From Bradyrhizobium roseum (GTDB taxonomy: Bacteria; Pseudomonadota; Alphaproteobacteria; Rhizobiales; Xanthobacteraceae): a stretch of DNA of 64,000 nucleotides. Each line of letters starts with the position of its first letter. The stretch's first letter is position 1. Positions 5,234 through 26,274 of the stretch are shown piece after piece. The translations under genes and the position numbers were made by a program. The notes beneath the pieces were generated by a model. It saw only the letters and a list, made by a program, of their open reading frames with translations, was not told where the DNA came from and ran no database searches. The stretch lies in assembly GCF_030413175.1 (NCBI RefSeq), contig NZ_CP129212.1, positions 1,364,001-1,428,000 of the forward strand, read 5' to 3'.

Positions 5234-5310
5234 CCTTCACGCATCGCCATCATAGAACTCGCCGTGCCCGCGCGCATGCGTCAATCAGGCGGTCTTCATC
5301 GTATGCGTAC

Positions 5311-5622
5311 AGAGCATGCGACGGCCCTGGTGCTGAACGCGAAGGAACGCATGGACCCCGCCTGGTGAATGCCCGTCGCAAGCGCGGCTGTGGCGAGACT
5401 TGTGCGTGTAGATGGAGGGAAGCAGCGATGCTTGTTCTGCGAGGAGTCGAGAAAATCTGCAGGAGGGAGTTGACTTTGTCCGCCCGATTAGGAAGGCAAG
5501 ATAAAAGCAATGGCGCCTGAGTGCGGCTAAGTCACTGTCTGCACATCCAAGAGTTGGAGCTAGCGGCACGTGCGGTGTCGTTACAATGTCGCTAAGCACT
5601 CTAACCCGCTCGGCCCAAGAGC
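5311..5622. other. Gap right of the IS66 element
   Basis: About 310 bases lie between the proposed IS66 right end and the stop of the next minus-strand gene. No gene with a credible ribosome-binding site or codon pattern was seen on either strand, and no strong hairpin. It is probably intergenic DNA or a remnant of an older gene interrupted by the insertions. Confidence 0.4.
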
Positions 5623-6081
5623 TTACGTTGGACCTTGGGCATGTTTGCCGGACAGATGCATCATGGCTTCCCTTACAAGAGCCACTGAACGACAGAGCCG
5701 TTGCAAAAGAGAATTCAAATCGGCAGAAGTGATTTCCTCAAGGTGTAGGCTGTCGACCGAAACGGTCTGAGCGATGACTCGGTCAATCGGTTCGGTGACC
5801 GATGGCAGGCCATCTCTGAGGCTAAATTGAATGTGTCCGTCCGACGCTATGGCCACCGCTAGCTCCGCATCTCTAAAAATTGCGCTTTCGACGATTGAGG
5901 CAGGAAGTTCCAGCGCGCAAACGACATTTCCCGTTTCACTGCAGCGATAGCCTGCCCGGTAGGTAACCGGGCCAAGCGGTCCGCTGCTTCCAATTGTGAA
6001 GAAAGCTTCAATCCTATTGGTCATCTCGTCTATGGCTTTCGTCGAACGGGCGAGAAACTGAGATGGCCTGCCATCGGTCAT
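5623..6081 (-). CDS. Hypothetical protein beside an XRE regulator
   Basis: This 152-residue soluble protein has no signal peptide, membrane segment or recognised motif. The ATG at 6081 begins MTDGRPSQFLARSTKAI. Composition is mixed alpha/beta, with a run of alternating hydrophobics around residues 60-110 that suggests a beta-rich core. It is divergently transcribed from the XRE-type gene that starts 65 bases away, so the pair probably shares a control region. Function is unknown; a partner or target of the regulator is possible but not shown. Confidence 0.6.
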   Translation of the reverse strand: MTDGRPSQFLARSTKAIDEMTNRIEAFFTIGSSGPLGPVTYRAGYRCSETGNVVCALELPASIVESAIFRDAELAVAIASDGHIQFSLRDGLPSVTEPIDRVIAQTVSVDSLHLEEITSADLNSLLQRLCRSVALVREAMMHLSGKHAQGPT

Positions 6082-6104
6082 CCGCGGTCAGCTTTACATA
6101 CTAT

Positions 6105-6116
6105 AGTTGATAAACT
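6105..6116. promoter_or_regulatory. Palindrome between divergent genes
   Basis: AGTTGATAAACT is a perfect inverted repeat (4-4-4) in the AT-rich 65-base divergent intergenic region. It lies between the hypothetical gene at 5623-6081 and the XRE regulator. Small XRE repressors commonly bind such sites to control their own promoter; that role here is inference. Confidence 0.35.
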
Positions 6117-9993: not shown

Positions 9994-11043
9994 TCACATC
10001 CGAAGTGCAAGTCCTTTGATCCAACTCATGCAGAATTCGATGGCCCAACTCTCTTGATAGGTACTAAGAGTAATCATTTCGCTGCTACCGGCACCATGTC
10101 CCATTGGGTTACGAATTTTGGAAAAGAATATCTTCAAGCTCTCAGCTTCCCAAAGCTCGATGAACTTGGCCTTGCTGGACAAAAGATTATCTATGTAGTT
10201 GTGGGCTCCTCGCTCTCCCCCATGAGTCCAACCCTTCTCGTCCGAAATAATCTTGATAGTACTCTCAAGAGCACGAGCTGCATAAAATGCAGGGTCTCGT
10301 GTACCCTCGTCGCGTCGATCCACTGCCTCCTTCATATCAATATCGACGTTCTTCCATTTCGGCGCAGCGACGATGTTCCAAAACGGCTGCTCTACTGTAC
10401 TTAGGACGAGGCTATCCTCCGAACGCTGGATGAAGCCGTTATGGTAGTGCAAGCTGCAGCCGGCTTGTCGAAAGCGAGTGTTCAACTCGTCGACGAGCTG
10501 TCGGAATGTATCGTTCAGCTTCTTGTTAGACTCTCGGACACCCGCAGCCGGATCCCCAGGCAACTGAAGAGTGCCAGGTATTTTACGCGACGCTCGCAAG
10601 CGTGCATTTTCGATCGCTGTAGGTAGGTGTTGGTTGACGGTTGCGAGTTGCTCGTCCCGTGTTCTGAAGCCCAGCTCGATGAGACTCAGTCTCTCCTTGA
10701 CGTAGGTATCCGCAGACTCGCTCGAGGTGCGGTCACGTAACATCCAAGTTTCGCAAACCTTAACGATGGTGTACGTGCCGCTAATCCACTGTTTTGTGGG
10801 CGAGTAGTACCCATAAACAAGCGGGGAGAGAGAGGGGAGTCCGAGCTCCATTGAGATACGCGGATGCAAGTCCGTCCAAACTGCCTTCATTGGAAGCGTC
10901 TCGTTTCCGCTGCTATCGTAATACGAGAACAGCTGCTCCTTTAAAATACGGAACGTTTGGACGAGTAGCCGGCGCTCCGGCTCACCAAATGTAGTCCAGA
11001 TAGGTACGTTCAGATAACGATTGGAGAAGACGTCTGTAAGCAC
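9994..11043 (-). CDS. HEPN/Abi_C-type protein, candidate abortive-infection RNase
   Basis: This 349-residue soluble protein has a C-terminal region resembling the abortive-infection C-terminal HEPN fold: helix ALESTIKIISDEKGW, a later helix, then KIRNPMGHGAG. R311-N-x3-H316 matches the R-x4-6-H active motif of HEPN ribonucleases. The N-terminal ~200 residues are unassigned. The GTG at 11043 is chosen because AGGA lies 7 bases upstream; a longer frame to 11199 would run into the divergent promoter region. It is co-transcribed with the membrane protein that follows. HEPN proteins of this kind often act as RNA-cleaving toxins in phage defence; that role here is inferred from the motif and neighbours. 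Confidence 0.72.
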   Translation of the reverse strand: MLTDVFSNRYLNVPIWTTFGEPERRLLVQTFRILKEQLFSYYDSSGNETLPMKAVWTDLHPRISMELGLPSLSPLVYGYYSPTKQWISGTYTIVKVCETWMLRDRTSSESADTYVKERLSLIELGFRTRDEQLATVNQHLPTAIENARLRASRKIPGTLQLPGDPAAGVRESNKKLNDTFRQLVDELNTRFRQAGCSLHYHNGFIQRSEDSLVLSTVEQPFWNIVAAPKWKNVDIDMKEAVDRRDEGTRDPAFYAARALESTIKIISDEKGWTHGGERGAHNYIDNLLSSKAKFIELWEAESLKIFFSKIRNPMGHGAGSSEMITLSTYQESWAIEFCMSWIKGLALRM

Positions 11044-11189
11044 CGCAGCATCCTGCCGAACTAGTACGTGTTGATCTTTGGGCGCGCCTAACGACCGCGT
11101 TGCGGGCAACCGCCTGCCAGCAACCCCGGCGGTCCGTTGCCAAATTGTACCCCATCCCAATATGCTCGCTAGGATTGATGGAGGCGAAT

Positions 11190-11834
11190 ATGAGGTCAAT
11201 TCGTTTCAGGCGCAAGCGGCCCAAGCCAGTCGAAACGAAGTCTCCAGTTCTCACGTTTGTTCAGGCGTGGGTGCCAATTATAGCGGTGATCCTAGGAGGA
11301 CTCTTTACCACTTGGACGTACGTTAACGATCATAGGGTTAAGTTGGTCGAGTATGAAAAGACCCAGAAGATAGAAGCGCAGCGTCCTTTTCTAACTAAGA
11401 AGATGGAGCTGTTCTTGGAAACCGCACGGACCGCTGGCGATCTGACTGCAGTCAAAGTGGGGTCAAAGGAGTGGAAAGCTGCAAAGCAAAAAATATACGC
11501 CTTGCGTTGGGGTGCAATGGAAATGTCAGGAAACCCCGTCGTCCGTTTAGCAATGCGCGAAGTAATCGCGGAGGTGAACGCCCTGGAATCAGCAACGCCT
11601 GAAGACAGAGAAAGACGACACGCGCGGCTTCGCAACAGTGTCGAGTGTTTGTCTGATGAACTACGCTATTCGTTGGAGGAGGCGTGGGGTAATCCTGTTG
11701 AACCCGTCGAAGATCGTGCCTCATCTTCCGAGCCGTCTCGAACCGATCTGCCTACGGGATGCTGGCAGCCAGAAGAGATAAAGAAGCAACAACGCGTTAT
11801 ATTTCACTCCCGGCCCAATTTTACTCCCTTCTAA
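11190..11834 (+). CDS. Membrane-anchored hypothetical protein
   Basis: This 214-residue protein has a basic N-terminus and one transmembrane helix (about residues 21-40, FVQAWVPIIAVILGGLFTTW). A charged, mostly helical soluble domain follows (~45-175), then a proline/serine-rich tail. The ATG at 11190 is selected because TGGAGG lies 6 bases upstream; an in-frame ATG at 11178 lacks this. It is divergent from the HEPN operon across ~145 bases. No family was recognised. The single-helix anchor plus helical cytoplasmic domain resembles accessory membrane proteins in defence islands, but this is only contextual. Confidence 0.65.
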   Translation: MRSIRFRRKRPKPVETKSPVLTFVQAWVPIIAVILGGLFTTWTYVNDHRVKLVEYEKTQKIEAQRPFLTKKMELFLETARTAGDLTAVKVGSKEWKAAKQKIYALRWGAMEMSGNPVVRLAMREVIAEVNALESATPEDRERRHARLRNSVECLSDELRYSLEEAWGNPVEPVEDRASSSEPSRTDLPTGCWQPEEIKKQQRVIFHSRPNFTPF

Positions 11835-12018
11835 CAACGACCCCGATCTGTGATTTTGTCGCGTCAGTGCCACAGCACTCATCCACGGCGTCTGCTCCAC
11901 TGTGGCCTTGGTGAGGTTGATAAACTGGAAGAGGACTGTTGCGCCGATAGATGCGCCGCCGTTCACTCGATAGGACGATAGGATTCACCCGCTAATAGTA
12001 GCACCGTCGCGCTGCTTA

Positions 12019-12384
12019 ATGATAAAAGTGCTCGGGGAGCTGGGAATGCCGGGTCTGAATGAAGTCATGAAGGCGCTGGGCGTCGGCCTGCCGTTTCTGT
12101 ACGCGGCGGGCACGTATTACCTCTTCCATCGCCTGGACATGCGAGCGTCCGGTCCAGCAAAGAAGGCGTTCTCCGACTGGTTTACAAGACGGTACGACCG
12201 CTCTGAGGTAGCTTCAGCCGTGGTCGAGGTGTTCGACCGCGTTTACACCCGGCCGCTCTTTGGCTGGCGCGCATTCTTGCGCTCTCTAGCCCTCACTCTC
12301 CTAACTGCCGTCATCTTCGTCGAGATGTTTTTCCCGATGATATTCCCCGTCGCGCGTTCGTCAGCAATCCTGGTCGCGACTTGA
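12019..12384 (+). CDS. Small membrane protein, possibly truncated
   Basis: This 121-residue protein has one weak hydrophobic segment at residues ~20-38 (GVGLPFLYAAGTYYLF) and a stronger one at ~90-115 (ALTLLTAVIFVEMFFPMIF). A charged loop with WFTRRYDRSEVASAVVEVFDR lies between them. It ends abruptly soon after the second segment. Hydrophobic coding potential seems to stop at the TGA, so a C-terminal part may have been lost. No family was recognised. Confidence 0.5.
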   Translation: MIKVLGELGMPGLNEVMKALGVGLPFLYAAGTYYLFHRLDMRASGPAKKAFSDWFTRRYDRSEVASAVVEVFDRVYTRPLFGWRAFLRSLALTLLTAVIFVEMFFPMIFPVARSSAILVAT

Positions 12385-12746
12385 ACGGCAGCATACCCAA
12401 TGAAAACGCAGATGCTCACCACCACCCAAAAGTAACGGGAGCTGCCAGACGTTATTGGGTAGCCAATGGACATTGCAGATGCCCGATTTTGGAGTGAATA
12501 CGGGCGAATATGCAGTCTGAGGAGTTAAGGCAAAATTAGCATTGGCATAGGCGCGGTAGGGGCTGTGTTCTGCCGGGGCATCGAGCATACCGCTTCGTGA
12601 TGGCAGCATCATAAACAGAAAACTAATTCACTCTCCTTTACGGGCGATTCATCCCAAAACGATGATCAGGGCCTCATCCCGACGAAAGCAATTGTGTTCC
12701 TCCAGAAGTTGCATAATGTTCCAAGGATAACTGGGGGAATAGACAT
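12385..12746. other. Gap before the HsdR_N-like gene
   Basis: About 360 bases without a supported gene. Short frames on both strands lack ribosome-binding sites. The end of the gap carries GGGGGAA upstream of the next ATG. Decayed coding sequence of the preceding membrane gene may lie at the left end. Confidence 0.35.
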
Positions 12747-14007: not shown

Positions 14008-14289
14008 ATGGCGGATGGCCAATTGGTGAACGGTAGACGAAGATCGGCGAATAATGTTCCGTCGACTGCGAATGGTCGAGAGGCAAAGACGATTCCGTTT
14101 GCCGAGCGTCTGAGCTGTACGATCGACGAAGCGTGCGAAGCAACCGGCTTGGGGCGCACTAAACTTTACGAGCTGATAGCAACCGGCCAACTCATCGCTA
14201 CAACGGTCGGACGTCGACGCTTGATAATGGTGCGATCACTCTTCGCGCTACTTGGCGAAGCCGGTGTGATAGCCAAGGACAGTGGGTGA
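14008..14289 (+). CDS. Excisionase-like helix-turn-helix protein (module copy 1)
   Basis: This 93-residue protein has a MerR/excisionase-type winged HTH: CTIDEACEATGLGRTKLYELIATGQL, then TTVGRRRLIMVRSLFALLGE. Such proteins (HTH_17 group) bind attachment DNA or steer recombination direction. ATG 14008 follows a strong GAGGAGGG site; an in-frame TTG at 13990 is less likely. It faces a decayed integrase on the opposite strand. A near-identical but frameshifted copy lies at 22988-23270. Confidence 0.8.
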   Translation: MADGQLVNGRRRSANNVPSTANGREAKTIPFAERLSCTIDEACEATGLGRTKLYELIATGQLIATTVGRRRLIMVRSLFALLGEAGVIAKDSG

Positions 14290-15005
14290 GCGGCGTCATC
14301 GCTGTGCCCCACGTCCTGAGCCGCCATTGCCGCCGCGGCCCTTGTACGACCCTGGCACCATGAGACGCCGCTCAGAGACCTGTAGGTCGCCCACGCGCAT
14401 ACGCCTGAACTGGGCATAGCGCGCGCCGGTCGCGGCCAGACAACGACGATGTGATAGAGATCGCCGTCGTATCTCTGCTCCCTGTCAACTTCCAACGCTT
14501 TTGAAGTAGTTCAGCGATCTGCTGATCTGTGAGGATCTGGTTGTCTCGAGCTAACCGTCGTCTCATCATCGTCCTCAATCCGCTCGGCTGTGAAGCCGGC
14601 TTTCACGTCGGTGAGGAACGTGGGATTTAACTTCTTTCGATTCGCGGAAAGCCGGGGCCGCAGGTCGTTCATAAGCCGCTGTTTTGTCGTGACCTTGAGT
14701 TCCTTCGGTAAGCCCTAACGCCACATTATCAGATCATCTTCCTTCACCTCCTGCAGATGCACCGCCGCGAGAGGTGTAGCCTCGATCGCTCGCTGAGTGC
14801 AGCGGTTGTCTTGGCCGAGTACGTAGCGCCGGAGTTTGTTGGCGGCATCGGACCGCATGTCGCGACCTGTTCGCCGCCGTTTACGAGCGTCGCGCTCCTT
14901 GATGTAGGCCTCAACGGCTGATCGCACGGTAGGGACAGGTCCCGCTGCCTGCGCCGCCGCTTCTGCCCCGGACCGAGCGACGGCGTCTCCGAGCTCGACT
15001 TGCCG
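14290..15005 (-). pseudogene. Decayed tyrosine integrase (module copy 1)
   Basis: The minus strand is highly similar to the middle part of the intact integrase at 23371-24765, but the gene is broken. At about 14315 the sequence jumps directly from the excisionase-side flank to the internal region, removing ~450 bases that in the intact copy encode the C-terminal catalytic end with the nucleophilic tyrosine. Several small indels and a premature stop split the remaining frame (open pieces around 14372-14578 and 14715-14927). Homology ends near 15005, so the N-terminus is missing too. It cannot make a recombinase. Confidence 0.85.
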
Positions 15006-15086
15006 AAGTCAACCGAGGAACGAGCGGCCGAACCCAAGGGCGTCAAAGGGACCCGGGCACCGCCATCCTCGATTGAAATTGATGTC

Positions 15087-15116
15087 TTGACATCCCTCGG
15101 TCGCACAACCCATGAT
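15087..15116 (+). promoter_or_regulatory. Sigma-70-like promoter of the protease cluster
   Basis: A perfect TTGACA (15087-15092) is followed after 18 bases by CATGAT (15111-15116, four of six matches to TATAAT), about 30 bases before the first gene, which has GGAGG before its ATG at 15147. It is the only consensus-like -35 seen near the cluster, so the cluster may be read from here. No operator was recognised. Confidence 0.45.
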
Positions 15117-15146
15117 ATAGGCATATTTTATTGATCGGAGGCTGCG

Positions 15147-16334
15147 ATGTATCGCCTGGTTCCGTTCTTCATTTCCGCATTTTTAAATAGTCCGGCCCTT
15201 AGACGTTTCATGGTTCTGACCGCGGTTTGCTTAGTGTTAGGGACACCTGCCCAAAGCGAGCCCTATGATATTCCGCAGGACACGGCGGCCGCGATTAATC
15301 GTCCTGACGAGTATGCGTGGAAATTGTTTGTAGCGCTCAATTGGCCAGCAGATGTGACAAAGCGCGCGGCAAGTCCTACCGCAAAATTTGGTGCGGACGG
15401 ACCGGTTGTCTGGGAAACTTGGAAGAACGCGCGCGGTGAGGTTTTTCGATCGGATGGAAAGGATCCCGGCGATTGGCTGGACCAGCCGGCTGTGGTCGCC
15501 TCGCGGAACGCTACCGACGTTGATCCCAGGCCGCTCCAACAAATCGCCCGCGACAATCAACTTGGAATTTTTCAGCCGGCGTTTGATCCCGTCGCGGCAA
15601 TAAACCAAATCAACGAAACCCGCCTCAATAAGGAGGCCTACGAATTCGTCCGCAGCAAGACGCTTTACAATCGCGACGGCCAGAACGCGCTCGCCAAGGC
15701 CGGTGAATTGACGATCTCGTTCCCGCTTCCGGCAAAGGAGATCAAGGCGCAATGGCGTGTGATTAGCGAAGCGGACAAGCTCCGGTACCACTGGACGACG
15801 CTTCGCCAGGGCAACACGACCATCATTTTCGGTCTAACCGCGCTCCATATCACCACGAAGGATCTGCCGAATTGGTTCTGGGCAACCTTCGAGCATGTCG
15901 ATAACCCAACGCGCCCGGGAAATGAACCATGGATGCTCGAATCGCGCGACAGCTTTGCATGTCCGACCGCTCCGCATAATTGCAACTTGGCGCCCAGCGG
16001 AATCGGTTTACAGGGAACCAAATGGGCGTTCTTTCGGCTGAGGGGCACGCAAACAGATTTCGTTGACTCGCGTGGAAACATTACGCTGCTCGCGAACTCG
16101 CAACCCGAAGGAGGGTTCCAGAAGAGCTCGTCGTGCATCACTTGCCATGCACGCGCGACCATCGGCGCGAGCGGCAACGATCGGCTACAGGTCTTTATGC
16201 CGAATGGCGAGAGCGCTAACGGACCGCCGGATTCGAACTGGTTCGTTACCAAGGACGCCAGCGGCAAGTCGATCCTCCGATATACTCAACTGGATTTCGT
16301 TTGGTCGCTATTCCGCGCCCAGCCGAAGCAATAG
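15147..16334 (+). CDS. Exported protein with one c-type heme motif
   Basis: This 395-residue protein has an N-terminal signal-like hydrophobic stretch (about residues 20-38, ending before a PAQSEP cleavage-like site). A single CITCH heme-attachment motif lies near residue 330, and several aromatic motifs (WKLFVALNWP, WFWATFEHVDNP) recur in a poorly described family of periplasmic proteins. Three further cysteines occur in the segment before the heme motif. It resembles a monoheme cytochrome rather than an enzyme of known type. It is the first gene of the protease cluster, 15 bases before the trypsin gene, so electron transfer or heme-dependent sensing in the same periplasmic process is possible. 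The specific role is unknown. Confidence 0.65.
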   Translation: MYRLVPFFISAFLNSPALRRFMVLTAVCLVLGTPAQSEPYDIPQDTAAAINRPDEYAWKLFVALNWPADVTKRAASPTAKFGADGPVVWETWKNARGEVFRSDGKDPGDWLDQPAVVASRNATDVDPRPLQQIARDNQLGIFQPAFDPVAAINQINETRLNKEAYEFVRSKTLYNRDGQNALAKAGELTISFPLPAKEIKAQWRVISEADKLRYHWTTLRQGNTTIIFGLTALHITTKDLPNWFWATFEHVDNPTRPGNEPWMLESRDSFACPTAPHNCNLAPSGIGLQGTKWAFFRLRGTQTDFVDSRGNITLLANSQPEGGFQKSSSCITCHARATIGASGNDRLQVFMPNGESANGPPDSNWFVTKDASGKSILRYTQLDFVWSLFRAQPKQ

Positions 16335-16349
16335 GGCTGGAGCTTCGCA

Positions 16350-17189
16350 ATGTCTGATGAATCCCGTCGCCAGCGCGTGACACGGTCGCTGGGCGCTGCC
16401 GCGCTGCTACTCGCGCTTGGCAGCATTTCGTCCGGTTACGCGGCCGAAATCGTCATGAAGAAAGCTACGCCTGCCGGCGCAGGCGCCCCCCAGATCGACG
16501 GCGGCACTAGGCAGGACGTAGCGACGTGGCCGGCAACGCTCAAATATTTTCTGTCGGATAATTTCGCCTGCACCAGCACCATCGTTGGCGAACGCGCGGT
16601 GATTACGGCGGCACATTGCGTCGCTGGTGCGACCCAGGCAAAAGTGGATTTGGGCGCCGATATATTTCCGATCGACTGCACCACGCATCCGCTTTTCGTC
16701 CGCGAGACACTCGAGGCCGATATTGCCTTGTGCTACAGTTCGAAGGATTTCCCCAGCACCATAGGATTTGAAAATCTCGATCTGCGGTCGACGCGCGTAC
16801 GCATCGACAGCAACCTGTATCTGCTCGGGTTTGGCTGTCGCAATGTGAATACACTCGCCGGCGACGGCGAGCTTTATGGCGGCAGCGCGAGGGTATACCA
16901 GTTGGCCACGTTGCCGACCGGCCATGTTCGAACCCGGGGCGGCGTCGTGATTTGTCCGGGTGACAGCGGCGGCTCCGCCTACATGCTGGCGGTCGACGAC
17001 AAGCCGGTAAATCCACGGTCGATCGTCGGCATCAATTCGGGCTATATCGCTGTTAACCGCGTCTCCGCGATAACAGGACTTACCGGGGTGATGGCGGACT
17101 TCATCCGCGACTGGGCAGACGACAGGAAGGCACGCATATGCGGCGTTCACCAGGACGCGCGGTTTTGTCACGATCGATTCTCGCCTTGA
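16350..17189 (+). CDS. Exported trypsin-like serine protease (S1)
   Basis: This 279-residue protein has a signal peptide (about residues 12-31, ending ...SGYA-A). The chymotrypsin fold has its full triad: H89 in TAAHC, D124 in EADIALC and S206 in CPGDSGGSA. Cysteines around the histidine and serine would form the usual disulfides in the periplasm. It starts 15 bases after the cytochrome-like gene and ends 8 bases before the chosen start of the subtilisin-like gene, so the three form one transcript. Trypsins with a short propeptide are usually activated by cleavage, which fits a cascade with the neighbouring proteases (inference). Confidence 0.88.
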   Translation: MSDESRRQRVTRSLGAAALLLALGSISSGYAAEIVMKKATPAGAGAPQIDGGTRQDVATWPATLKYFLSDNFACTSTIVGERAVITAAHCVAGATQAKVDLGADIFPIDCTTHPLFVRETLEADIALCYSSKDFPSTIGFENLDLRSTRVRIDSNLYLLGFGCRNVNTLAGDGELYGGSARVYQLATLPTGHVRTRGGVVICPGDSGGSAYMLAVDDKPVNPRSIVGINSGYIAVNRVSAITGLTGVMADFIRDWADDRKARICGVHQDARFCHDRFSP

Positions 17190-17197
17190 GGGCCACG

Positions 17198-19519
17198 ATG
17201 CGCGCTCGTAAGCTGCTCGTCTCCTGCTGCATTATTTCCTTGCTTGGACTCTGTTCGCCATCGGCTCTTGGCCAGGACACCAGCAAGGACCTTCTCATTA
17301 AAACGAAAAAACTCACTCCCGAGCTGGTGGTAGCGGCCGCCAAGCTCGGAAAAGAACGGATGATCCCGGCCAAGGCCAACTCGGACATCTTGAAGCTGAT
17401 CGCGGAGATCTGCGGTACCGCCAATGCGCGCCGCTACTATCTTCCGGTCTTTCTATCGGCCAACGCCGGCAATGAGGATATTCGATCTGGGAAGACGATT
17501 CTTACCAAGGACGCAACGCTGGTCTTTCCGGCCTGCCTCTATGCAGATGAGCAGCTTGCGACGGCCAAGGCATCGAACACGCGCATCGAATGGGGCAAGC
17601 TGACCCCGACCACGGCGCGTACGTTGCAGGATGCGATGCGCAAGACCGAGCCGTCTGCTGCCGCGCTCCCCAAGAGCACCAAATGGATCGCAAGCGCGAG
17701 TACGACCGCGGCGCTCGAGGATGTCTCCAGCACTAATTGGGGCGGGCAACTGATAGGCTATGAACATCTCAACAAGACGATTCCAAAGAAATTGGTCCAG
17801 CAGGGCCCCGCCATCGTCGCGGGATTCGACAGCGGGCGCATTCTCGATCCTGGTGCGAGCGAACAATACAAGAAGCTGCTGAAAGGGTCGCTCGCCACCG
17901 ACGCAACGTCGCTCGACAGCAACCTGATCCTGAATTCGACCGCCTTCGAGCGCATTGCGCGAGCGCAAGATATTCGGGCGTCCAATCAGACGACTGACTT
18001 CAGCAGACTGCCTACCGGCTCCAGCGTTGTTACGTCGGATTTCGCGCCTGGCGGATATCAGCTCACCCTCAAGGAGGGTACCGATGTCAAGGCGGCCGCG
18101 AAGGAAATCTTCGCTGCTTTGCCGCCGACGGGCTCGGCGGTCGGCCAATTGTCGAAGTTCACGCCGTACTTTGCCGAACCGCTCAGTGGCGGCGCCGGCG
18201 ACTGCACGCCCGGCGCGGCCAAGAAATGGCCGATCGATCTCGACGAACTCAAGACCGTCCTAGAAGCGCGCAAACGCATCGGTAAAATGCCGCTTACGGG
18301 CAGGCTGCTGATCCTCGACACCGGATTCCCGCGCGGGAAGGTCGGCACCGCCCCGTTCAGCCAAAATTTCTTCCATCCTAGTCCGCGCGATGACGATCCA
18401 CTGAGGGAGCGCTTCTTGTGGACGGTCGCGCGTCCACCGGAATACTTCAACGAGAACTCAGAAAATGCCAGCCACGGCGTCGGCGTGCTCGCGCTGGCGC
18501 TCGGAGGGACGCAGCTTCTGGACGAAGGCTGGCTCTGGCAATACATCGATACACAAGGCGGCTTCATCGTCGACTTAATGGGCTATCAGCGGATTCCCGG
18601 CAACAAGTTGGGTGTCGATGCCAACGCGGTCACGCGAAGCCTGTCCGGAACCGGCTGGGGTCAAGCCGATATCGTGTCCGTCAACCTCAGCCTCAAATTC
18701 AATATCGAGACGATGGAAGAGGCGCCCGACTTCAGCGGCTATTTCAACGAGCAGCAACAAGTTCTGTTTGTGATCGCCGCCGGCAATGATGGAGCCGACG
18801 TGGTCGGCATCATCCCGGCGCAGTGGGGCGGCACGTCCAAGCGAAATGTACTGACGGTTGGCGCCGTGTCATCCGACAACAGATATTGGGCGAAATCCAA
18901 CAAGAGCCAATCCTTTGTCGATATCGGCGCGCCAGGTTGCGCGGTGCCGACCTTGTCCTGGAACAGCACATCGCAAAAGTTCGAGCCGGTCGTGCTGAGC
19001 GGTACATCGTTCTCCGCCCCGCTGGCGTCCTTTGCTTCCAACCTGCTCCAGGAATTCACGGCCGGTGCAAGGCGCAAGGCGCGAATCCTGTCGAGCGGCC
19101 GCTTCTCCAGCGACCTTCGGAAAACAACACGATCGTCCCGGGTGCTCGATATACCAGCAGCGCTCGCTACTCCTTTTGACGTTGTACGCATGGGTGACGG
19201 AAAGATGCGTCTCGGGCGCATTACCTGGGCTCCCGGGCGCACGCTTTGCAATGTCCCGTTCGTTCAGAACAGTTTTGCGCAAGTTCATCGCACCGACACG
19301 CCTGACGAGGTTAGCGTCGTCCGCAAGATTGGGCCAACCAATCAGGGGGCGATAGATTTTCCGAATTGCACGCTGGCGAGCGGCCAGCTCAGCAGCATAG
19401 GCTTTCAGGAGGCCGTGGCATCTGACGATGGACTAAGACTCGGGCCCGCCGAGACGCTGGATTTCAGAAATCTCGAGAGCATCACCTTCTGCGACAACTG
19501 CGACTTGTGGCAGCCGTAG
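17198..19519 (+). CDS. Exported subtilisin-like protease (S8) with long N-terminal region
   Basis: This 773-residue protein has a signal peptide (about 1-26), then ~340 residues without a recognised domain, then an S8 peptidase core. The triad is D374 (LLILDTGFP), H426 (NASHGVGV) and S604 (SGTSFSAP); the oxyanion asparagine lies in IAAGNDGADV. A ~150-residue C-terminal region follows. The ATG at 17198 is preferred to one at 17138, which would overlap the trypsin gene and bury the signal sequence. The long N-terminal part may be a prodomain or substrate-recognition module. The S8 core matches no specific maturation system I recognise. Confidence 0.85.
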   Translation: MRARKLLVSCCIISLLGLCSPSALGQDTSKDLLIKTKKLTPELVVAAAKLGKERMIPAKANSDILKLIAEICGTANARRYYLPVFLSANAGNEDIRSGKTILTKDATLVFPACLYADEQLATAKASNTRIEWGKLTPTTARTLQDAMRKTEPSAAALPKSTKWIASASTTAALEDVSSTNWGGQLIGYEHLNKTIPKKLVQQGPAIVAGFDSGRILDPGASEQYKKLLKGSLATDATSLDSNLILNSTAFERIARAQDIRASNQTTDFSRLPTGSSVVTSDFAPGGYQLTLKEGTDVKAAAKEIFAALPPTGSAVGQLSKFTPYFAEPLSGGAGDCTPGAAKKWPIDLDELKTVLEARKRIGKMPLTGRLLILDTGFPRGKVGTAPFSQNFFHPSPRDDDPLRERFLWTVARPPEYFNENSENASHGVGVLALALGGTQLLDEGWLWQYIDTQGGFIVDLMGYQRIPGNKLGVDANAVTRSLSGTGWGQADIVSVNLSLKFNIETMEEAPDFSGYFNEQQQVLFVIAAGNDGADVVGIIPAQWGGTSKRNVLTVGAVSSDNRYWAKSNKSQSFVDIGAPGCAVPTLSWNSTSQKFEPVVLSGTSFSAPLASFASNLLQEFTAGARRKARILSSGRFSSDLRKTTRSSRVLDIPAALATPFDVVRMGDGKMRLGRITWAPGRTLCNVPFVQNSFAQVHRTDTPDEVSVVRKIGPTNQGAIDFPNCTLASGQLSSIGFQEAVASDDGLRLGPAETLDFRNLESITFCDNCDLWQP

Positions 19520-19861
19520 GCCGATGTCGGGCTTTGCGCGTAGCGGTCCGAACCGGGACGAGAGACCCGAAGCAGCTCAATGCGGCCTCGTAGCATCGCC
19601 GCCTGCCTGGAAGAGGCACGGCTAACCTCCGGGCGGCTTGCGCTCGTTGCGCGAGGGCGGTGACCGGTATTTGGTGCATCGCTTAGCTGCCTCTACGTTC
19701 TTGTCGTTGCAGGTCGGCATCTAACTTCGGCTACGGAGGGACGAGGAGAAACGATGTTCAATGAGAGATTGAGAGTGATCGCTCGCGGGCACTTGCGATC
19801 TGTCCCAACTTATGATTGATTTGATCTGTTCATTGATGCGTTTGATGCGCGGGCGTTTACG
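19520..19861 (+). other. Gap inside the protease cluster
   Basis: About 340 bases separate the subtilisin-like and metalloprotease genes. Apart from the small frame at 19754-19819, no gene, strong promoter or terminator stem is seen. The break may divide the cluster into two transcripts. Confidence 0.4.
19754..19819 (+). CDS. Possible 21-residue leader peptide
   Basis: An ATG follows a strong GAGGAG site by 5 bases and opens a 21-codon frame beginning MFNERLRVIARGHL and ending TYD before TGA, 42 bases upstream of the metalloprotease gene. The good ribosome-binding site contrasts with the weak one of the following gene, so a translated leader is possible. No homologue is recognised, and chance cannot be excluded for so short a frame. 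Confidence 0.25.
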   Translation: MFNERLRVIARGHLRSVPTYD

Positions 19862-20551
19862 ATGCCTTCGAAGAGTTACTGTTTGGCTTTCGCGTTATTC
19901 GCCCTCGTCACGTCCGGCGCAGCTGTGATTCAGCCGTCCAGCGCGAGAGCTCAAGCCGCTCTTCCAGCGGGTGTCTCCAAGGAAGAGGCCTTCGGTACCG
20001 TTCTGAAAGCGTCAAAGTGGGAGCGTTTGAACATCCAGGTCTGCTGGGAAAATCCAGTCACAGACGACGCGCCTTACCGTTTGATCGTGCGATCGGCTGT
20101 GGAGGAAACGTGGCAGCGTTATTCGAGGATTAAATTCGAAGGATGGGGGAAGTGTGCACAAGACACGCCCGGAATCCATATTCGCATTTCGGATGAGGGC
20201 GCCCACACCAAGGCACTCGGCAAGTTTCTCGACCAGCGCCCCGACGGGATGGTCCTCAACTTTACCTTCAAGACATGGAGCAAAAGCTGTCAGGCGACCC
20301 GCGAGTTCTGTGTATACGCCGTCGCGGCTCATGAGTTCGGGCATGCCTTGGGTTTTGCCCATGAGCAAAATCGTGCAGACGCTCCCGCCGAATGCCACAA
20401 GGACGCCCAAGGAACGCCTGGCGACTACAACGTTACGAAGTACGATCCACAATCCATCATGAATTATTGTAACCCGATATGGAACGGCGACGGCAAACTC
20501 AGCGACCTCGACATCGAGGCGCTCCAAGCCTTTTATGGAAAACCTGGCTAG
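19862..20551 (+). CDS. Exported matrixin/astacin-type zinc metalloprotease
   Basis: This 229-residue metzincin has a signal peptide (about 1-31, ending ARAQA). The extended zinc motif HEFGHALGFAHEQNR has H157, E158, H161 and H167, with the Met-turn SIMNYC downstream. The domain fills nearly the whole mature protein, with no added binding modules. Six cysteines suggest disulfides. Its end overlaps the start of the second trypsin gene by 73 bases in another frame, so the two are tightly linked. Confidence 0.9.
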   Translation: MPSKSYCLAFALFALVTSGAAVIQPSSARAQAALPAGVSKEEAFGTVLKASKWERLNIQVCWENPVTDDAPYRLIVRSAVEETWQRYSRIKFEGWGKCAQDTPGIHIRISDEGAHTKALGKFLDQRPDGMVLNFTFKTWSKSCQATREFCVYAVAAHEFGHALGFAHEQNRADAPAECHKDAQGTPGDYNVTKYDPQSIMNYCNPIWNGDGKLSDLDIEALQAFYGKPG

Positions 20552-21660
20552 GAGTCTCGATTGCGCAATGCCTTACCGTCAGCGCCTTGGCTGACGCGGC
20601 TGCGGTCAAGGTCGCCGGAAAATACAATGCCCGCGTCGCCCACGTGGAGACGATCGGGACGCTCTTCAACGACAAACAAGACGTCGGTGCGGGCTCCGGC
20701 CTTTTAATTGGTGAGACGCTCATCGTTACCAATAATCATGTTGTTCCGGATGCGAACAACTACAAGCGGCTGGACATCTTCATCCGCCTCAAATCCCGCC
20801 TAAACAATCCGCAATCCGCTACTATTCTGGCACGTGATCCGCAGCGGGACTTGGCGTTGCTGCAGTTGAGTACGCCTGTCTCGGATGCCGGCGGTAAGCA
20901 TTGTCCAATGCCTATCTTGTTGAACCCATCCCAAGCCCCGATGGGTACAACAGTGCTGGTACTCGGCTTTCCGCTAAACCAGGACCTCAGCTTATCGGGC
21001 GGTTTGATCAGCAACCAAGGCTCACCTCCCAAAGAAGTCAGATGGCAGACTGACACTGTCATGAACCCGGGCAATAGCGGGGGGCCGGCATTCGAAGACC
21101 ATGGATTCCTATTGGGTATCGCATCCGGCGGCATCGTCCAGTGGACGATCGGCGGCGAGACGCGCAACGTGAACGGCGTAAACTACTTCATCCCGGTATC
21201 AGAGCTCGTCGCGAGCCCCCTCTACCAGCACATAGACGAAATCCCCCAGGAAAAGCGTTGCTGGCGCGCATCTCAGGAGGATCTGGTCGTCGATGCGAGC
21301 ACCTCAATCGCGATCGGTGATTCAGGATCATCGAAAGCACCTCCGGGTCCTACCGCACTTCAACGGAGCTATACAGTTTCAGAGACCAAGGACGATCATC
21401 CAGTAGCGTTGGCATCGCATTCCCGGAACTATCAGTCTCGTTTCCAGGCAGAGCCCGGCTACAAGGTCGTCGCGTGTACGCCGAAGGCGGAGAGCGCAAA
21501 TCATGCCAACGATATTGTCTGTAACATTGATAGCGGCGGAGGATCTGCTGTCTTTTCGTACCGCTTGGAAAGCGGTCCCGCTATCGATCGCTGGCGCGGG
21601 TGGTGGGCCGGATACGTGACGCTGCGACAAGAGCGCATCGGAGGGGATAACGCACAATAG
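20479..21660 (+). CDS. Exported trypsin-like serine protease with C-terminal extension
   Basis: This 393-residue protein has an arginine-rich N-terminus and a hydrophobic signal segment (about 22-40, ending ALADA). The trypsin_2/DegP-like protease domain has triad H87 (VTNNHVV), D124 (QRDLALLQ) and S200 (NPGNSGGPA). About 110 C-terminal residues follow, with Cys pairs and no PDZ motif recognised. The only ATG that covers the signal peptide is at 20479, inside the metalloprotease gene; a shorter non-ATG start near the overlap end cannot be excluded. It resembles HtrA-family proteases in the core but lacks their PDZ tail. Confidence 0.85.
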   Translation: MERRRQTQRPRHRGAPSLLWKTWLGVSIAQCLTVSALADAAAVKVAGKYNARVAHVETIGTLFNDKQDVGAGSGLLIGETLIVTNNHVVPDANNYKRLDIFIRLKSRLNNPQSATILARDPQRDLALLQLSTPVSDAGGKHCPMPILLNPSQAPMGTTVLVLGFPLNQDLSLSGGLISNQGSPPKEVRWQTDTVMNPGNSGGPAFEDHGFLLGIASGGIVQWTIGGETRNVNGVNYFIPVSELVASPLYQHIDEIPQEKRCWRASQEDLVVDASTSIAIGDSGSSKAPPGPTALQRSYTVSETKDDHPVALASHSRNYQSRFQAEPGYKVVACTPKAESANHANDIVCNIDSGGGSAVFSYRLESGPAIDRWRGWWAGYVTLRQERIGGDNAQ

Positions 21661-21747
21661 GAATTAGACGACAGCCGTACACGATCGATAGCGAGGGAAG
21701 CAATCTTCAAACGAGCGGCGATTGCGAACGAACGGTAAGGGGCGAAA

Positions 21748-22575
21748 GTGGCACGATTGCAGCGAATAGCGCTTACGCTTGCATGCGGGCTCGGCGGATG
21801 CGCCGTCATGCCCGACATTGCACCGGACTGGGCACTTCCGATGCGGGAGATCATGCTCCATTCCGCCTGTGAACTTCAGGATGCGCTCGGTACGCTTGAT
21901 CGGGAGGTACCGCACGAATTGTTCAATGCGCGAAACTGGAAAATCGCGGTCACGCTGAATCCGAAATCGGAAGCGGACATCGTTCCCGGTGCCGGTTTAA
22001 CTCGGAAGGTTCCCCCTCCCGCGACGACTCGCTTCTCGAACTGGATTGTGGGAGGCGGTAACGGTGTCACTCTTGATATGAGGGGAAACCGTACTGGAAG
22101 CGTCGATTTCAATTTCGACTCTGAAAAACTAATCCTTGATAGCGCTCTGCCCTGCGAGCGCGAAACGATTTCGTACCATTCGCTCACAAAGAATCTGGCC
22201 ATTAAAGAATGGCTTTATCGTTCCGTGCAAGCCAACGCGGTAGCGGGTTCGGTCATCGACAATCCAAAATTCACGGCGCAAGTAGTCGTTAAGTTCAATG
22301 GGACCGCGAGCTACACCTATACATTCCCGCCTGGCACCGACTTTTTGACGCTTGGAGGGTACCTTCAGCTCGACCAGACGCTGAGCATTGTATTCACAAA
22401 GAAGCCGGCCGTCGTGGCAAAATATGATCTCGTGACGTTGCCGGCTGGCGGCGACGGGTTCAAGCGAAACCAGGCACGTCAGGTAACATCAAGCATTTCG
22501 ATTCTAGAAGACCAACAGGTCTCGCTGCAGCAGATTCGGCAGCAATTGCAGAATCTGCGGGCAGTCGGCCAATAA
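21748..22575 (+). CDS. Predicted outer-membrane lipoprotein
   Basis: This 275-residue protein begins with a short signal peptide and an LGGC lipobox (cysteine near residue 18), so lipid anchoring is expected. The mature part is beta-rich, with repeated aromatic and glycine patterns (e.g. YTYTFPPGTDFLTLGG). The C-terminal ~40 residues form a Gln-rich helix. The start is GTG 21748 after AAGGGGCG. No family was recognised. Its place in the protease cluster suggests a surface partner, substrate or inhibitor of the proteases. Confidence 0.65.
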   Translation: MARLQRIALTLACGLGGCAVMPDIAPDWALPMREIMLHSACELQDALGTLDREVPHELFNARNWKIAVTLNPKSEADIVPGAGLTRKVPPPATTRFSNWIVGGGNGVTLDMRGNRTGSVDFNFDSEKLILDSALPCERETISYHSLTKNLAIKEWLYRSVQANAVAGSVIDNPKFTAQVVVKFNGTASYTYTFPPGTDFLTLGGYLQLDQTLSIVFTKKPAVVAKYDLVTLPAGGDGFKRNQARQVTSSISILEDQQVSLQQIRQQLQNLRAVGQ

Positions 22576-22585
22576 GGGGGGCACC

Positions 22586-22969
22586 ATGGCTGAGTCACTG
22601 CCGACGACCCTTCTGATCTTGTATTTCGTTGGGCAACCGCCGGTCGATCCGAAGGGCATTTCCAAAGCGGACTTGGAAACAAAAATCAACTGGACCCTTC
22701 AAAGCACTAGCCAGATAGAAACACGTAGCCCTGAAGCTTGCCGCGTTATCGGCAACCAGCTCATCACAAGGATAGACAAGGTCAATACCATGACTGTACG
22801 CGCATACTGCCTGTGCGCAGATGTCTCAGGGACGGTTTGCAAAGGAACGGAGGAGATGTCCCAGGGGCGAGATGCCAATGAAAAGAGCGTTCGAAAAGTA
22901 GAGAGCGCGATCGTAGAGGCACTTGGCCGGACCTCAGGAACGCAACGGCGAGCCCCGCCTAAAAACTGA
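22586..22969 (+). CDS. Small hypothetical protein of the protease cluster
   Basis: This 127-residue protein starts 10 bases after the lipoprotein gene, with AAGGGGGGCACC before ATG 22586. There is a hydrophobic N-terminal stretch (TTLLILYFVG) but no clear cleavage site. Three cysteines lie in the middle (AYCLCADVSGTVC), and the tail is basic. It runs directly into the truncated excisionase copy. No family was recognised. Confidence 0.55.
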   Translation: MAESLPTTLLILYFVGQPPVDPKGISKADLETKINWTLQSTSQIETRSPEACRVIGNQLITRIDKVNTMTVRAYCLCADVSGTVCKGTEEMSQGRDANEKSVRKVESAIVEALGRTSGTQRRAPPKN

Positions 22970-22987: not shown

Positions 22988-23270
22988 GCGGACTGCCAAT
23001 TTGGCGAACGATAGACGAAGATCGCCGAATAATGTTCGTTCGACTGCAAATGGTCGAGAGGTAAAGACGATTCCTTTTGCCGAGCGTCTGAGCTGTACGA
23101 TCGACGAAGCGTGCGAAGTAACCGGCTTGGGGCGCACTAACTTTACGAGCTGATAGCAACCGGCCAACTCATCGCTACAACGGTCGGACGTCGACGCTTG
23201 GTCATGGTACGATCACTCTTCGCGCTACTCGATAAGACGAAACCGGAGTGATAGCCAAGGACAGTGGTGA
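22988..23270 (+). pseudogene. Frameshifted excisionase (module copy 2)
   Basis: The sequence matches the intact excisionase at 14008-14289 closely but has lost its start region. It also has a one-base deletion after GGGCGCACTAA (about 23139-23142), which sends the frame to a TGA at 23153. The HTH core is therefore broken. Confidence 0.85.
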
Positions 23271-24460
23271 GCGGAGCAAAAGCATCTTCGCAACTGCTCG
23301 AGAAAAGCAGCGCGTGAGCGGCATCATCGCTGTGGTGCCCCACGTCCCCGGGGCACAAGCGCCGCAACGCTCATGCGCGTTTCTCCATAGGCACCACGTT
23401 TCCGCCGCTCCTACGTACCAGAGGCACGACTATCGCCCTCGCGAGCTCTTCCAGGGCCGTCGCAATGTATTTGGCATAATGCCGCTCGATCATATTGACG
23501 GAGGTGTTATGCAATTTGGCGACGTGCTGGATAGGCAAACCCTTCCGGAGACCGCGCACGATGCTCGAGTGCCGCAAAGCGTAGGGAATTACGTGAGGCA
23601 TTGCGGCACGTTCGCGAATAGCGTGCCAGGGGCGCGTAAGTTCAGCTGTTTTCCATGGGCCGCGTTTGGACCTTTTCCACTTTATGCCGTTAGACTCCTG
23701 CTCGTGGATCCAGCGCTCGAATAGCGTCGCATCACTCGGCCGCCCGACGATCGCTGGCAAAAGCGTCTCGATGACATCGTCACCGACCGGCACGGGGACT
23801 GAGCCGCCATTACCGCCGCGGCCCTTGTACGACCCCGGCACCATGAGACGCCGCTCAGAGACCTGTAGGTCGCCCACGCGCATACGCCTGACCTGGGCAT
23901 ACCGCGCGCCGGTCGCGGCCAGACAAACGACGATATGATACAGATCGCCGTCGTATCCCTGCTCCCTGTCAACTTCCAACGCTTTTTGAAGTAGTTCAGA
24001 GATCTGCTGATCCGTGAGGATCTGGTTGTCTCGAGCAACCGACGTCTCATCATCGTCGTCAATCCGCTCGGCCTTGAAGGCGGTTTTCACGTCAGTGAGG
24101 AACGTGGGATTGAGCTTCTTTCGCTTCGCGGAAAGCCGTGGCCACGAGGCGTTGAGGGCGGCCTTCAGGTCGCCGATGAGCCGCTGTTTTGTCGTGACCT
24201 TGAGTTCCTTCGGTAAGCGCTCGCGCCACGTTAGCAAATCGTCTTCCTTCAACGCATGCAGATACACCGCCGCGAGAGGTGCAGCCTCGATAGCTCGCCG
24301 AGTGCCGCGCTTGTCTTGGCCGAGAACGTGGCGCCGCAGCTTGTTGGCAGCATCGGACCGCACGTCGCGACCTGTTCGTCGCTTTTCCCGATCATCGCGT
24401 TCCTTGATGTAGGCCTCAACGGCCGAGCGCACGGTAGGAGCAGGTCCCGCTGCCTGCGCC
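22988..24460 (+). repeat. Excisionase-integrase module, direct repeat copy 2
   Basis: Second copy of the block at 14008-15005, in the same orientation. It keeps ~450 bases of integrase C-terminal sequence that copy 1 has lost, while its excisionase is frameshifted. Confidence 0.85.
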
Positions 24461-24765
24461 GCAGCTTCTGCCCTGGCTCTGGCAACGACTTCTCCGGCCG
24501 TCTTGCTGGCCTGCTGGAAGGTCAGCATGCCAGCGGCCGGTTTGTCGTTGACATCGTTCGCCGTGCCAACAGGGGACTGTTTGTAGCTGGCACCATCATA
24601 GTGATTGCGCCAACGGACTAACCAAATGCCGCCTCGTTTCCCCTTGCGATAGCCGAGGTGCGCTTCCGCATCGATGCGGCGCCAATGCACCCCGGCTTCC
24701 AATTTGGAGCGCGCCTTTGCTGTCGTGACTTGCGACTCTATGAGGGCCTTTGACATCTCATCCAC
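23371..24765 (-). CDS. Tyrosine-type integrase of a tRNA-targeting island
   Basis: This 464-residue protein has the P4-integrase-like layout: an N-terminal arm-binding domain (to ~85, with WRRIDAEAHLGYRKGKRGG), a core-binding domain (~110-235), then the catalytic domain. The first arginine lies in AATGARYAQVRRMR, a lysine region in PGSYKGRGG, and YALRHSSIVR corresponds to the usual HxLRH box with Tyr in place of the first His. The nucleophile is in IERHYAKY. The frame is intact. It is transcribed away from the tRNA-Glu fragment at 24.92 kb, the standard arrangement for an integrase beside its attachment site. Confidence 0.92.
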   Translation of the reverse strand: MDEMSKALIESQVTTAKARSKLEAGVHWRRIDAEAHLGYRKGKRGGIWLVRWRNHYDGASYKQSPVGTANDVNDKPAAGMLTFQQASKTAGEVVARARAEAAAQAAGPAPTVRSAVEAYIKERDDREKRRTGRDVRSDAANKLRRHVLGQDKRGTRRAIEAAPLAAVYLHALKEDDLLTWRERLPKELKVTTKQRLIGDLKAALNASWPRLSAKRKKLNPTFLTDVKTAFKAERIDDDDETSVARDNQILTDQQISELLQKALEVDREQGYDGDLYHIVVCLAATGARYAQVRRMRVGDLQVSERRLMVPGSYKGRGGNGGSVPVPVGDDVIETLLPAIVGRPSDATLFERWIHEQESNGIKWKRSKRGPWKTAELTRPWHAIRERAAMPHVIPYALRHSSIVRGLRKGLPIQHVAKLHNTSVNMIERHYAKYIATALEELARAIVVPLVRRSGGNVVPMEKRA

Positions 24766-25195
24766 CTGTCGACCGCATTGCGACGGGCAAGTTTTCGTCG
24801 AATAACCGTCGAATAAGCATCGTTGTACCGAGGCGGACGATAGCGGAGCAAAACCTCCAAGTCATTGATTTTATTGAATGTTGGCGAACGGGAGCGGACG
24901 GGTGAAAGCGTTTTCTCGGGCACTCTCAAGGCTGAAACAGGGGTTCGATTCCCCTAGGGAGCGCCATCTGGGCTTCTCGCTCCAGCAACATCAGTCACTT
25001 AGAGCCCGTTTGTGCAATTGTTGAATCGTTGTTTATGTAAGCTCCGTTCCGGCTTTGGTCGGTGAGCCGGCTAGGGGCCTTTGCGGCGGCTTCGCGCATC
25101 TTGGCCGCGCCGCTGTCCGCCAGCTTCCTTTTGTCCGCCGCCTTGGTGTAACGCTCCACTTCGCTCAGTGCTCATCCGGGGAAATGCGATATTCG
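24766..25195. other. Island edge beside the tRNA fragment
   Basis: Apart from the tRNA-Glu fragment, this ~430-base region shows no supported gene. The part before the fragment should hold the integrase promoter and arm-binding sites; no clear repeats of such sites were picked out by eye. Confidence 0.4.
24923..24966 (+). other. tRNA-Glu(CTC) 3' half, attachment-site copy
   Basis: From a CTCTCAA anticodon loop (CTC at 24925-24927) to the terminal GCGCCA, the sequence reads like the 3' half of tRNA-Glu: AAACAGGGGTTCGATT (T-arm, perfect 5-bp stem 24939-24955), then CCCCTAGGGAGCGCCA including encoded CCA. The 5' half is absent and the anticodon stem no longer pairs, so it is not an expressed tRNA. 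Its place 158 bases from the integrase start marks it as one end (attL or attR) of the island. Confidence 0.75.
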
Positions 25196-26274
25196 CTATC
25201 GAGCCCACGTCGTGTCGAACTCCTTGAATATACGTTTGCAATCCCAAGTATCGACTTTCATCTCTAGTCCGCGCGGCGACGCAATCGCGCTTGCGATTTG
25301 CTCCATTATTTGCCCAACGGCTGACGATGAACGCTCTGTTGCAGTGGCGTAGACGACCACATTGCGATCGTGGGAAGCGGTCGCGGTTGCGCGAAGTAAT
25401 TTCATGTTCTGCTCGTGAAAATGACAGCCCAAGAATATAATCCGCTCCGCATCAGCGACTTTCAATGACAGCTTTTCCAAGAATTGTCGGTCAGAGATTT
25501 CCTCGTTGTATGTCGAAATGCGTTGCCAGAGAGCAACGAGATCGTGAGGACTCGGGCTTTTGCCAAACGCATGGCCTCGACCATCAGCCTGCCAAGGCAA
25601 GTTCGCTACCTTTCCGTACACATGATCGATGTCCAGTTTGCCATTGACGATCAAAGCGGCTTCATCTGGGGGCAGATGAAAAGCATGCTGCAATCCTTGA
25701 TAAAGGAAGTGCTCAAAGGTGCGGTCATAGTTGAACGTGATAACGCTCAGCTGATCAAATATATTGATAAGGTTTTTGCTTTTTACGACGTTCGTTTCGA
25801 GGATTGACCAAAGTGACTGAAACACGACTGCCGAACGGCATCCTTGTCGCGAAATCCCTGTTTATTTGAAGCGGCTTCTGAATCGATGTAGAGAGCGCAA
25901 TCCCGTTCGCTTTCAAGAATGATTTGCGCGATGGCCAATTTCCCGCACTGTTGAACTAACGGCTGATCTTGATGGCGATGCAGGTATCCGTCGATTGAAT
26001 TCGTCCAGCCGGGCAAGCCTCGGGAAATCTGATGACCTGCGAGAAAGTAAGCATTCACGTCGGTTCCGGATGCTTGCGCCAATAACTGCATCGCAGTGCG
26101 CGTCGTGCTGTTACCGGTGGCGCTGTTCTTCTCTTCCTCTGTCCAACCCCAATTGTTCTCTGGGCTGAGGTTTAGATACTTTGCGATCGTTGTAGCTAGT
26201 GCGCCGCCCATGGGCATCTTTATGTCAGCGCCAGCAACTGCGCCAATTATCAAAAGTGTTTTTCTTCCAAGCAT
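25196..26274 (-). pseudogene. Frameshifted SIR2-like gene
   Basis: Two adjoining minus-strand frames form one ~360-residue SIR2-like protein. The first (26274 to ~25825) begins MLGRKTLLIIGAVAGADIKMPMGG, resembling the glycine-rich NAD-binding start of SIR2-like domains. The second (~25825 to 25196) contains VITFNYDRTFEHFL, a recurrent motif of the same family, and IIFLGCHFHEQN near its end. A single-base frame change near 25820 separates them; a second stop follows at 25783. SIR2-like proteins often act as NAD-depleting phage-defence effectors. This copy appears inactive unless the shift is programmed or a sequencing error. Confidence 0.65.

Follow-up and report, generated by a model that had tools for sequence, protein, structure and literature searches.

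Exported-type proteases and a putative heme protein in a mobile cassette of Bradyrhizobium roseum

Several described bacterial systems bring peptidases together with partner proteins, and we refer to them here as far as extracts of the papers go. System 3 of Kaur et al. 2020 (PMC7159879) couples multiple peptidase domains to NucA-like endonucleases, mostly in alphaproteobacteria, and a subset of its operons carries the EAD1 recruiting domain. In antiviral nuclease-protease pairs (PMC12799240), protease-activated partners serve in defence. Astacins (M12A, PMC9848320) have the motif HExxHxxGxxH followed by the family Glu and xxRxDRD, as well as a SIMHY Met-turn; in these enzymes a new N-terminus becomes buried and makes contact with the family Glu. 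The rhizobial peptidase HrrP (PMC8175422) is reported to act on host peptides. Here we analyze a 64,000-nucleotide stretch of Bradyrhizobium roseum (contig NZ_CP129212.1, positions 1,364,001 to 1,428,000; the window, numbered from its first letter), in which seven packed, co-oriented genes at 15147-22969 encode four exported-type proteases together with CytL (a candidate heme-bearing protein), LipoX (a putative lipoprotein) and a small cysteine protein. We found no description of this gene set in open-licence PMC papers among the matches listed. We read the cassette as a mobile, selected and modular set of exported-type proteases in a defence-bearing island, probably mutually activating outside the cytoplasm and part of a conflict arsenal, and we tentatively give this reading a probability of about 0.42.

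Gene content and active sites

The order of the genes is CytL, S1a, S8, MetZ, S1b, LipoX and the small cysteine protein. This agrees with the first-pass annotation, which had noted tightly spaced protease genes in one orientation with CxxCH, lipobox and small cysteine-containing partners. CytL (15147-16334, + strand) is a 395 aa protein of exported type with a single CxxCH at residues 330-334 and no Pfam or NCBIfam family. It is followed after 15 bp by S1a (16350-17189, +), an exported-type serine protease of the chymotrypsin fold with an IDGG segment at residue 49. S8 (17198-19519, +), a subtilase of exported type whose N-terminal part is long, lies 8 bp further on when its start is placed at 17198; the open reading frame (ORF) opens at 17138, and 17198 is probably the start. 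After 342 bp comes MetZ (19862-20551, +), an exported-type, astacin-like metzincin with HEFGHALGFAHEQNR and SIMNY. Its partner S1b (20479-21660, +) is an exported-type, Trypsin_2/HtrA-like serine protease with an inferred start: the ATG at 20479 gives a 73 bp overlap with MetZ, and the next in-frame start is at 20587. LipoX (21748-22575, +), with LGGC at residues 15-18 and no family, begins 87 bp after S1b, and a further 10 bp separate it from the small cysteine protein (22586-22969, +). Signal peptides in the window and the LipoX lipobox were assessed by eye, which supports the export signals first claimed for the proteases; no clear signal was seen in the small cysteine protein. CytL, LipoX and the small cysteine protein have zero Pfam matches.

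Three protease clans are present in the one cassette, and intact catalytic residues could be located in all four proteases. S1a matches Trypsin (6.9e-14) and keeps H89/D124/S206. S8 matches Peptidase_S8 (4.9e-14) and keeps D374/H426/S604 in the subtilase domain (numbered from start 17198), which places it in peptidase family S8. S1b matches Trypsin_2 (3.1e-23) and keeps H87/D124/S200. It has no PDZ match in Pfam at E 0.01 and so lacks the HtrA/DegP layout of Trypsin_2 plus PDZ; it scores 74.5 bits against NCBIfam degP (cut-off 416.2), and its C-terminal part has no assigned family. The earlier label of two S1 trypsins holds for the fold of both and not for the name: S1b is HtrA-like, and position 189 of S1a, in what we take to be chymotrypsin numbering, is Val, so that S1a should not cut after Lys or Arg. 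Likewise, the zymogen-like long N-termini proposed for the proteases are found only in S8, where the first catalytic residue is at 374.

MetZ has HEFGHALGFAHE at residue 157 and SIMNY at 198. It matches several metzincin families in Pfam, all weakly (best M10, 1.8e-7), and its matches to PDB sequences are weak too (best MMP-1, 1.4e-4). As in the astacins of PMC9848320, HExxHxxGxxH is followed by E-x-x-R and there is a SIMxY Met-turn; unlike in those enzymes, the DRD after the Arg is lost (QNRADA) and the His of SIMHY is replaced (SIMNY), with Met and Tyr kept. In HEFGHALGFAHEQNRADA the Glu and Arg are retained and DRD is not.

In CytL, C330, C333 and H334 are invariant in 30 of 30 alignment rows, a CxxCH heme-binding motif that suggests a heme-bearing protein. 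A search by sequence against solved structures gave one match (E 0.36) and no related structure.

Recurrence of the cassette and its partners

B. lablabi CCBAU 23086 (locus L032) aligns to window positions 14991-22246 at 95% DNA identity. In it the frames of CytL, S1a, S8, MetZ and S1b are open throughout, that of MetZ extending beyond the stop in the window, and LipoX is cut off. A second Bradyrhizobium genome, G823 (L149), aligns to 15000-19569 at 95% and has CytL, S1a and S8 only. The rest of these two stretches is without match to the window; L032 and L149 have a slightly longer stretch in common with each other on the left. Over nine gene comparisons with the two loci, dN/dS is 0.12-0.25 (dS is saturated against more distant relatives). 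Recurrence at about 95% in two other genomes together with these ratios indicates that the cassette is more than chance. We reject the proposal that it is degenerate junk on the same dN/dS values, and the proposal that it occurs only in this strain because relatives exist in further genomes, including B. lablabi and G823.

Diverged relatives in L033 and L034 (57-74% protein identity) have S1a-S8 on the opposite strand and, nearby, genes for a Trypsin_2 protein, a lipase of LCAT type and a different lipoprotein (c70). LipoX and c70 occupy similar places and were considered as homologues, an assignment that we reject because detectable homology is absent. LipoX homologues adjoin CytL and S1 in L062 and L157, and the small cysteine protein had no homologue in the related loci searched.

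Pairs of proteases recur more widely. S1 then S8 is found in three genera: Bradyrhizobium (the window, L032, L149, L033, L034), Rhizobium (L019) and Sinorhizobium (L013 and L116, the S1 of L116 appearing broken). A search for MetZ in 397 genomes of the order was positive in five others, and the gene directly 3′ of MetZ is trypsin-like in four of these (L183, L184, L186, L187; not L185). The trypsin-like match is at the Pfam cut-off in L186 and below it in L187, and all four sequences line up at the triad positions. Among eight plasmid MetZ loci examined out of 18 records, two (L112 and L172) contain the MetZ and trypsin pair and one (L115) retains a remnant of it; the trypsin of L171 is located ~3 kb upstream. 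MetZ adjoins the c70 lipoprotein in eight plasmid records of peanut Bradyrhizobium, in one of which (L112) the trypsin partner was checked. The MetZ cluster of L187 also contains a RoxA-like cytochrome protein (10650-12641), another heme-type protein beside exported-type proteases.

Some of the partners are fused. A 1096-aa frame in a Planctomycetaceae metagenome-assembled genome (MAG; L051:2098-5385) links CytL to a trypsin domain through a region that bears a zinc site (HELGHGLGF). An S8-tyrosinase fusion of 975 aa is encoded by S. americanum (L013:16315-19242) and found again at L116:13306-16239, both on Sinorhizobium plasmids, and S. medicae has it at 93%. Near MetZ and Trypsin_2, the S. 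terangae plasmid locus L172 encodes caspase-EAD1 and caspase-GH25 (740-1819(+), 4162-6114(-)), and R. leguminosarum L171 has caspase, M23 and TPR-CHAT in addition. One alternative reading of the cassette is a secreted lytic or protein-shaving weapon against rival bacteria. The export-type sequences and the GH25, M23, patatin (by annotation) and LCAT enzymes of related clusters would suit such a weapon, but nothing in the cassette could be recognised as an immunity gene, a secretion apparatus or a gene of bacteriocin-like type; we consider it quite improbable.

HrrP is an M16 peptidase, a class other than that of the cassette proteases. The likeness to HrrP-type enzymes (PMC8175422) is by description only, both being rhizobial peptidases. 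A role in host interaction, with the proteases cutting plant signals or defence peptides as reported for HrrP in the same source, would fit the occurrence of related clusters on rhizobial plasmids, one of them (L013) adjoining nif genes, and the side-by-side MetZ and c70 genes of the eight peanut-Bradyrhizobium plasmid records. The absence of nodA from the B. roseum genome and from two of four other genomes tested weakens a purely symbiotic role, and protease-linked CytL also occurs in the Planctomycetaceae MAG and in a Variovorax. We regard this explanation as highly doubtful.

CytL relatives provide a broader sample of neighbourhoods. A CytL scan with alignment, based on two peptide patterns, gave the best 80 of 84 relatives, from many groups, which we split by length into 50 short (window-like; L051 and L066 were placed here) and 30 long loci, the long ones forming one clade in a quick tree. 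S8 occurs in 9/50 short loci, S1 in 6/50 and some protease in 13/50, and none of the 30 long loci has any. Dereplication of short CytL at 60% identity left 36 clusters, with some protease in nine. Against a background of 214 S8 genes in 307 Mb (50 genomes) and 259 S1 genes in 253 Mb (40 of those genomes), S8 is present in five clusters versus 0.41 expected (P 7e-5) and S1 in four versus 0.60 expected (P 0.003), where loci were scored with profiles made from the same neighbourhoods and the background with Pfam, so that sensitivities differ. With the clade of the window removed, S8 remains in four clusters and S1 in three (P 8e-4 and 0.02). A protease export signal was seen by eye in five of the nine protease-bearing clusters (the window clade, L051, L057, L059, L062).

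A CytL-family match is found in 83 of 265 genomes of the genus, few of them near the CytL of the window. At a threshold of 1e-5, none of 50,697 phage records matches CytL, and we reject the reading as phage cargo. Nine plasmid CytL loci were examined out of 47 records, and five have proteases (L013, L014, L018, L116, L174); L019 and L117 were examined for their S8, CytL being absent from the stretch covered. In a Pfam tally of 90 CytL-neighbour proteins we count seven S8, four tyrosinase, four Trypsin_2, three trypsin and two M4 matches; the proteins were hand-picked from 178 candidates, the S8/S1 genes of the nearest relatives of the window were omitted, and plasmid loci L013, L014 and L116, examined because CytL and S8 both matched there, were included. 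Family c8 (e.g. L035:9162-9824) also adjoins CytL, in 35 loci (22 without L119-L148); it has no Pfam match and by eye resembles a cytochrome-type domain without CxxCH.

Exported-type hydrolases could also be accessory exoproteases that digest protein as food, joined by shared usefulness, and related clusters do hold M4, M36 and M6 peptidases, an LCAT-type lipase and a protein annotated as heparin lyase. For digestion, the recurring company of tyrosinase and CytL and the fusions of either with proteases are odd, no transporter or uptake gene is among the seven genes, and the same island carries defence genes. We consider this explanation unlikely.

The first-pass annotation had held that a system would be contradicted if homologues were never found together or if the cluster were in just this strain. 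Both outcomes were looked for, and pairs and the cassette were found elsewhere: MetZ then trypsin, S1 then S8 and CytL-protease neighbourhoods all recur, and we reject the proposal that homologues occur only singly. The conserved gene order it had suggested looking for does not extend to the seven genes as a whole and is found for pairs and CytL-protease neighbourhoods. Support for a system comes from the pairs and neighbourhoods, and many CytL loci lack proteases. As judged from sequence, the recurring partnerships in distant bacteria point to a real, so far undescribed proteolytic system.

Island setting

On this single-contig genome, 62,250 bp separate an intact tRNA-Glu(CTC) gene, on the left, from a 44-bp direct repeat of its 3′ end (24923-24966, +), and the repeat is presumably the attachment-site copy at the right end of an island. 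Between a tyrosine integrase gene (23371-24765, -; an open 464-aa frame, PF00589 1.1e-8) and the repeat there are 157 bp. Because of the repeat and the adjacent integrase, we take window positions up to 24966 to be the right-hand portion of a tRNA-associated island of 62 kb, with the cassette near the end of the element bounded by the tRNA-Glu gene and the copy of its 3′ end. The mobile setting proposed at first thus stands. The position between integrase copies stands in part: one integrase is whole, and the other copy, an older broken xis-integrase unit at 14011-15003, is a remnant. A second copy of the excisionase-like segment (22988-23274, +) has a disturbed reading frame. A query with the repeat region matched 53 of 60 genomes (its own included), mostly with the tRNA end alone and several at more than one place; we infer that the repeat site is used for insertion in those matching genomes.

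The island carries defence genes. PADLOC identifies PDC-S06 in the window and AbiE and PDC-M54A in the same island, with matches for four of eight island proteins tested and none for five other window proteins. AbiE, IetAS and DUF4297 lie beside related clusters. In PADLOC-DB 2023, S1b has two matches to RT-Protease_XI, at its protease end (8.4e-18, 1.4e-15); other cassette matches are 7.7e-5 or weaker, and CytL, MetZ, LipoX and the small cysteine protein have none.

Other genes in and near the island include a large incomplete ORF (1392 aa; L188:15722-19900, -) that by eye resembles a NACHT-type NTPase, without a PADLOC match at 1e-6. Just outside the island, two overlapping ORFs at 25196-26274 (-) appear by eye to be one broken SIR2-type gene, also without a PADLOC match. 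A 550-aa transposase-like gene is duplicated in the island (window 3581-5233 and L189:11004-12656), and the N-terminus is identical.

Proposed mechanism and described systems

We propose that Sec export would deliver the proteases to the periplasm or the cell surface, where they would act in pairs and one member would release the mature N-terminus of its counterpart. LipoX may have an anchoring role, and CytL, as a partner that carries heme, a redox role. Together the proteases would cut envelope or extracellular proteins within the conflict arsenal of the island, directed at phage, plasmid or competitor. Chymotrypsin-fold S1 enzymes gain activity once a new N-terminus is freed. Given IDGG at residue 49 of S1a and the retained family Glu of MetZ, predicted activation of either by a partner is plausible. 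The conflict role is suggested by the defence genes in the island (PDC-S06, AbiE, PDC-M54A) and beside related clusters.

A number of observations weigh against this proposal. Only the window has the full seven-gene order, and B. lablabi has it with a shortened LipoX and no small gene detected. Proteases were not detected in 27 of 36 short CytL clusters or in four of nine plasmid CytL loci (L015, L016, L017, L118), and were present in only 5 of 20 further same-genus CytL regions (L149, L150, L157, L158, L164), two of which repeat known loci (L150 is like L018; L158 is L062). Where proteases do occur, those in four of nine clusters (L035, L037-L039, L040, L055) have no export signal by eye. A MetZ partner was not detected in four of the eight plasmid loci (L113, L114, L173, L176). 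Motifs are missing from two S1 proteins: G(D/N)SG from the one in L013 and TAAHC from the one in L019. The PADLOC matches of the cassette proteases reflect the protease fold only and do not amount to a convincing anti-phage match, and none of the genes could be recognised as coding for a sensor, an immunity protein or a delivery component. The conflict role is drawn from context, and the activity, export, cascade and target of the enzymes are predictions.

A further alternative is chance accretion, in which unrelated genes piled up between two integrase copies. Islands gather cargo, gene sets vary among loci, most CytL clusters (27/36) have no detected protease, and few relatives were found for LipoX and none for the small cysteine protein. 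The recurring pairs, the fusions, the enrichment and the purifying selection seen in dN/dS largely contradict this explanation, which we hold to be very improbable.

A bolder form of the mutually activating protease set, proposed by analogy and in our view decidedly unlikely, is a so far undescribed extracytoplasmic conflict system like the blood-clotting or prophenoloxidase relay. Metzincin, trypsin-fold and subtilase zymogen pairs would cross-activate, CytL, as a new family of heme proteins, would detect or provide a redox trigger, and damage to phage, to rivals or to the envelope of the cell itself would fall to interchangeable end effectors (proteases, tyrosinase, lipases). The logic of such a relay would be comparable to that of animal hemolymph cascades. 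If exported proteases of three clans do travel with a heme-type protein, in pairings kept across the order and beyond, they may constitute a bacterial extracellular proteolytic relay. In the extracts available, bacterial immune protease relays are coupled to nucleases or NTPases, and export is not described. The proposal also draws attention to CytL as a widespread family outside Pfam and NCBIfam, and to the CytL-zinc-site-trypsin and S8-tyrosinase fusions as directly testable partners.

The described system closest to the cassette in spirit is System 3 of Kaur et al. (PMC7159879, in extract). There too several peptidases (trypsin, S8) are encoded together and a cascade is proposed; the cassette has two S1-fold genes as its trypsin-like peptidases, and the related locus L172 combines caspase-EAD1, caspase-GH25, MetZ and Trypsin_2. 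Unlike System 3, the cassette has export-type N-termini as well as a metzincin and CytL. NucA/Endonuclease_NS (PF01223) and EAD1 (PF19955) are both absent from the whole B. roseum genome, and no cassette protein has a STAND match in Pfam. Across 13 genomes or records, PF01223 is found in one, the genome that contains L033, where the match (C1) lies outside the locus itself, and EAD1 in one, the record of L172, at two places. Because NucA and EAD1 are absent from the B. roseum genome, we reject membership of the cassette in the NucA-trypsin system. The antiviral pairs of PMC12799240, as far as the extract goes, offer a second likeness, in that a trypsin-like protease stands in a fixed pair with another enzyme and has been acquired repeatedly; the partner there is a DNA-cutting pro-nuclease, whereas here it is a metalloprotease or a subtilase.

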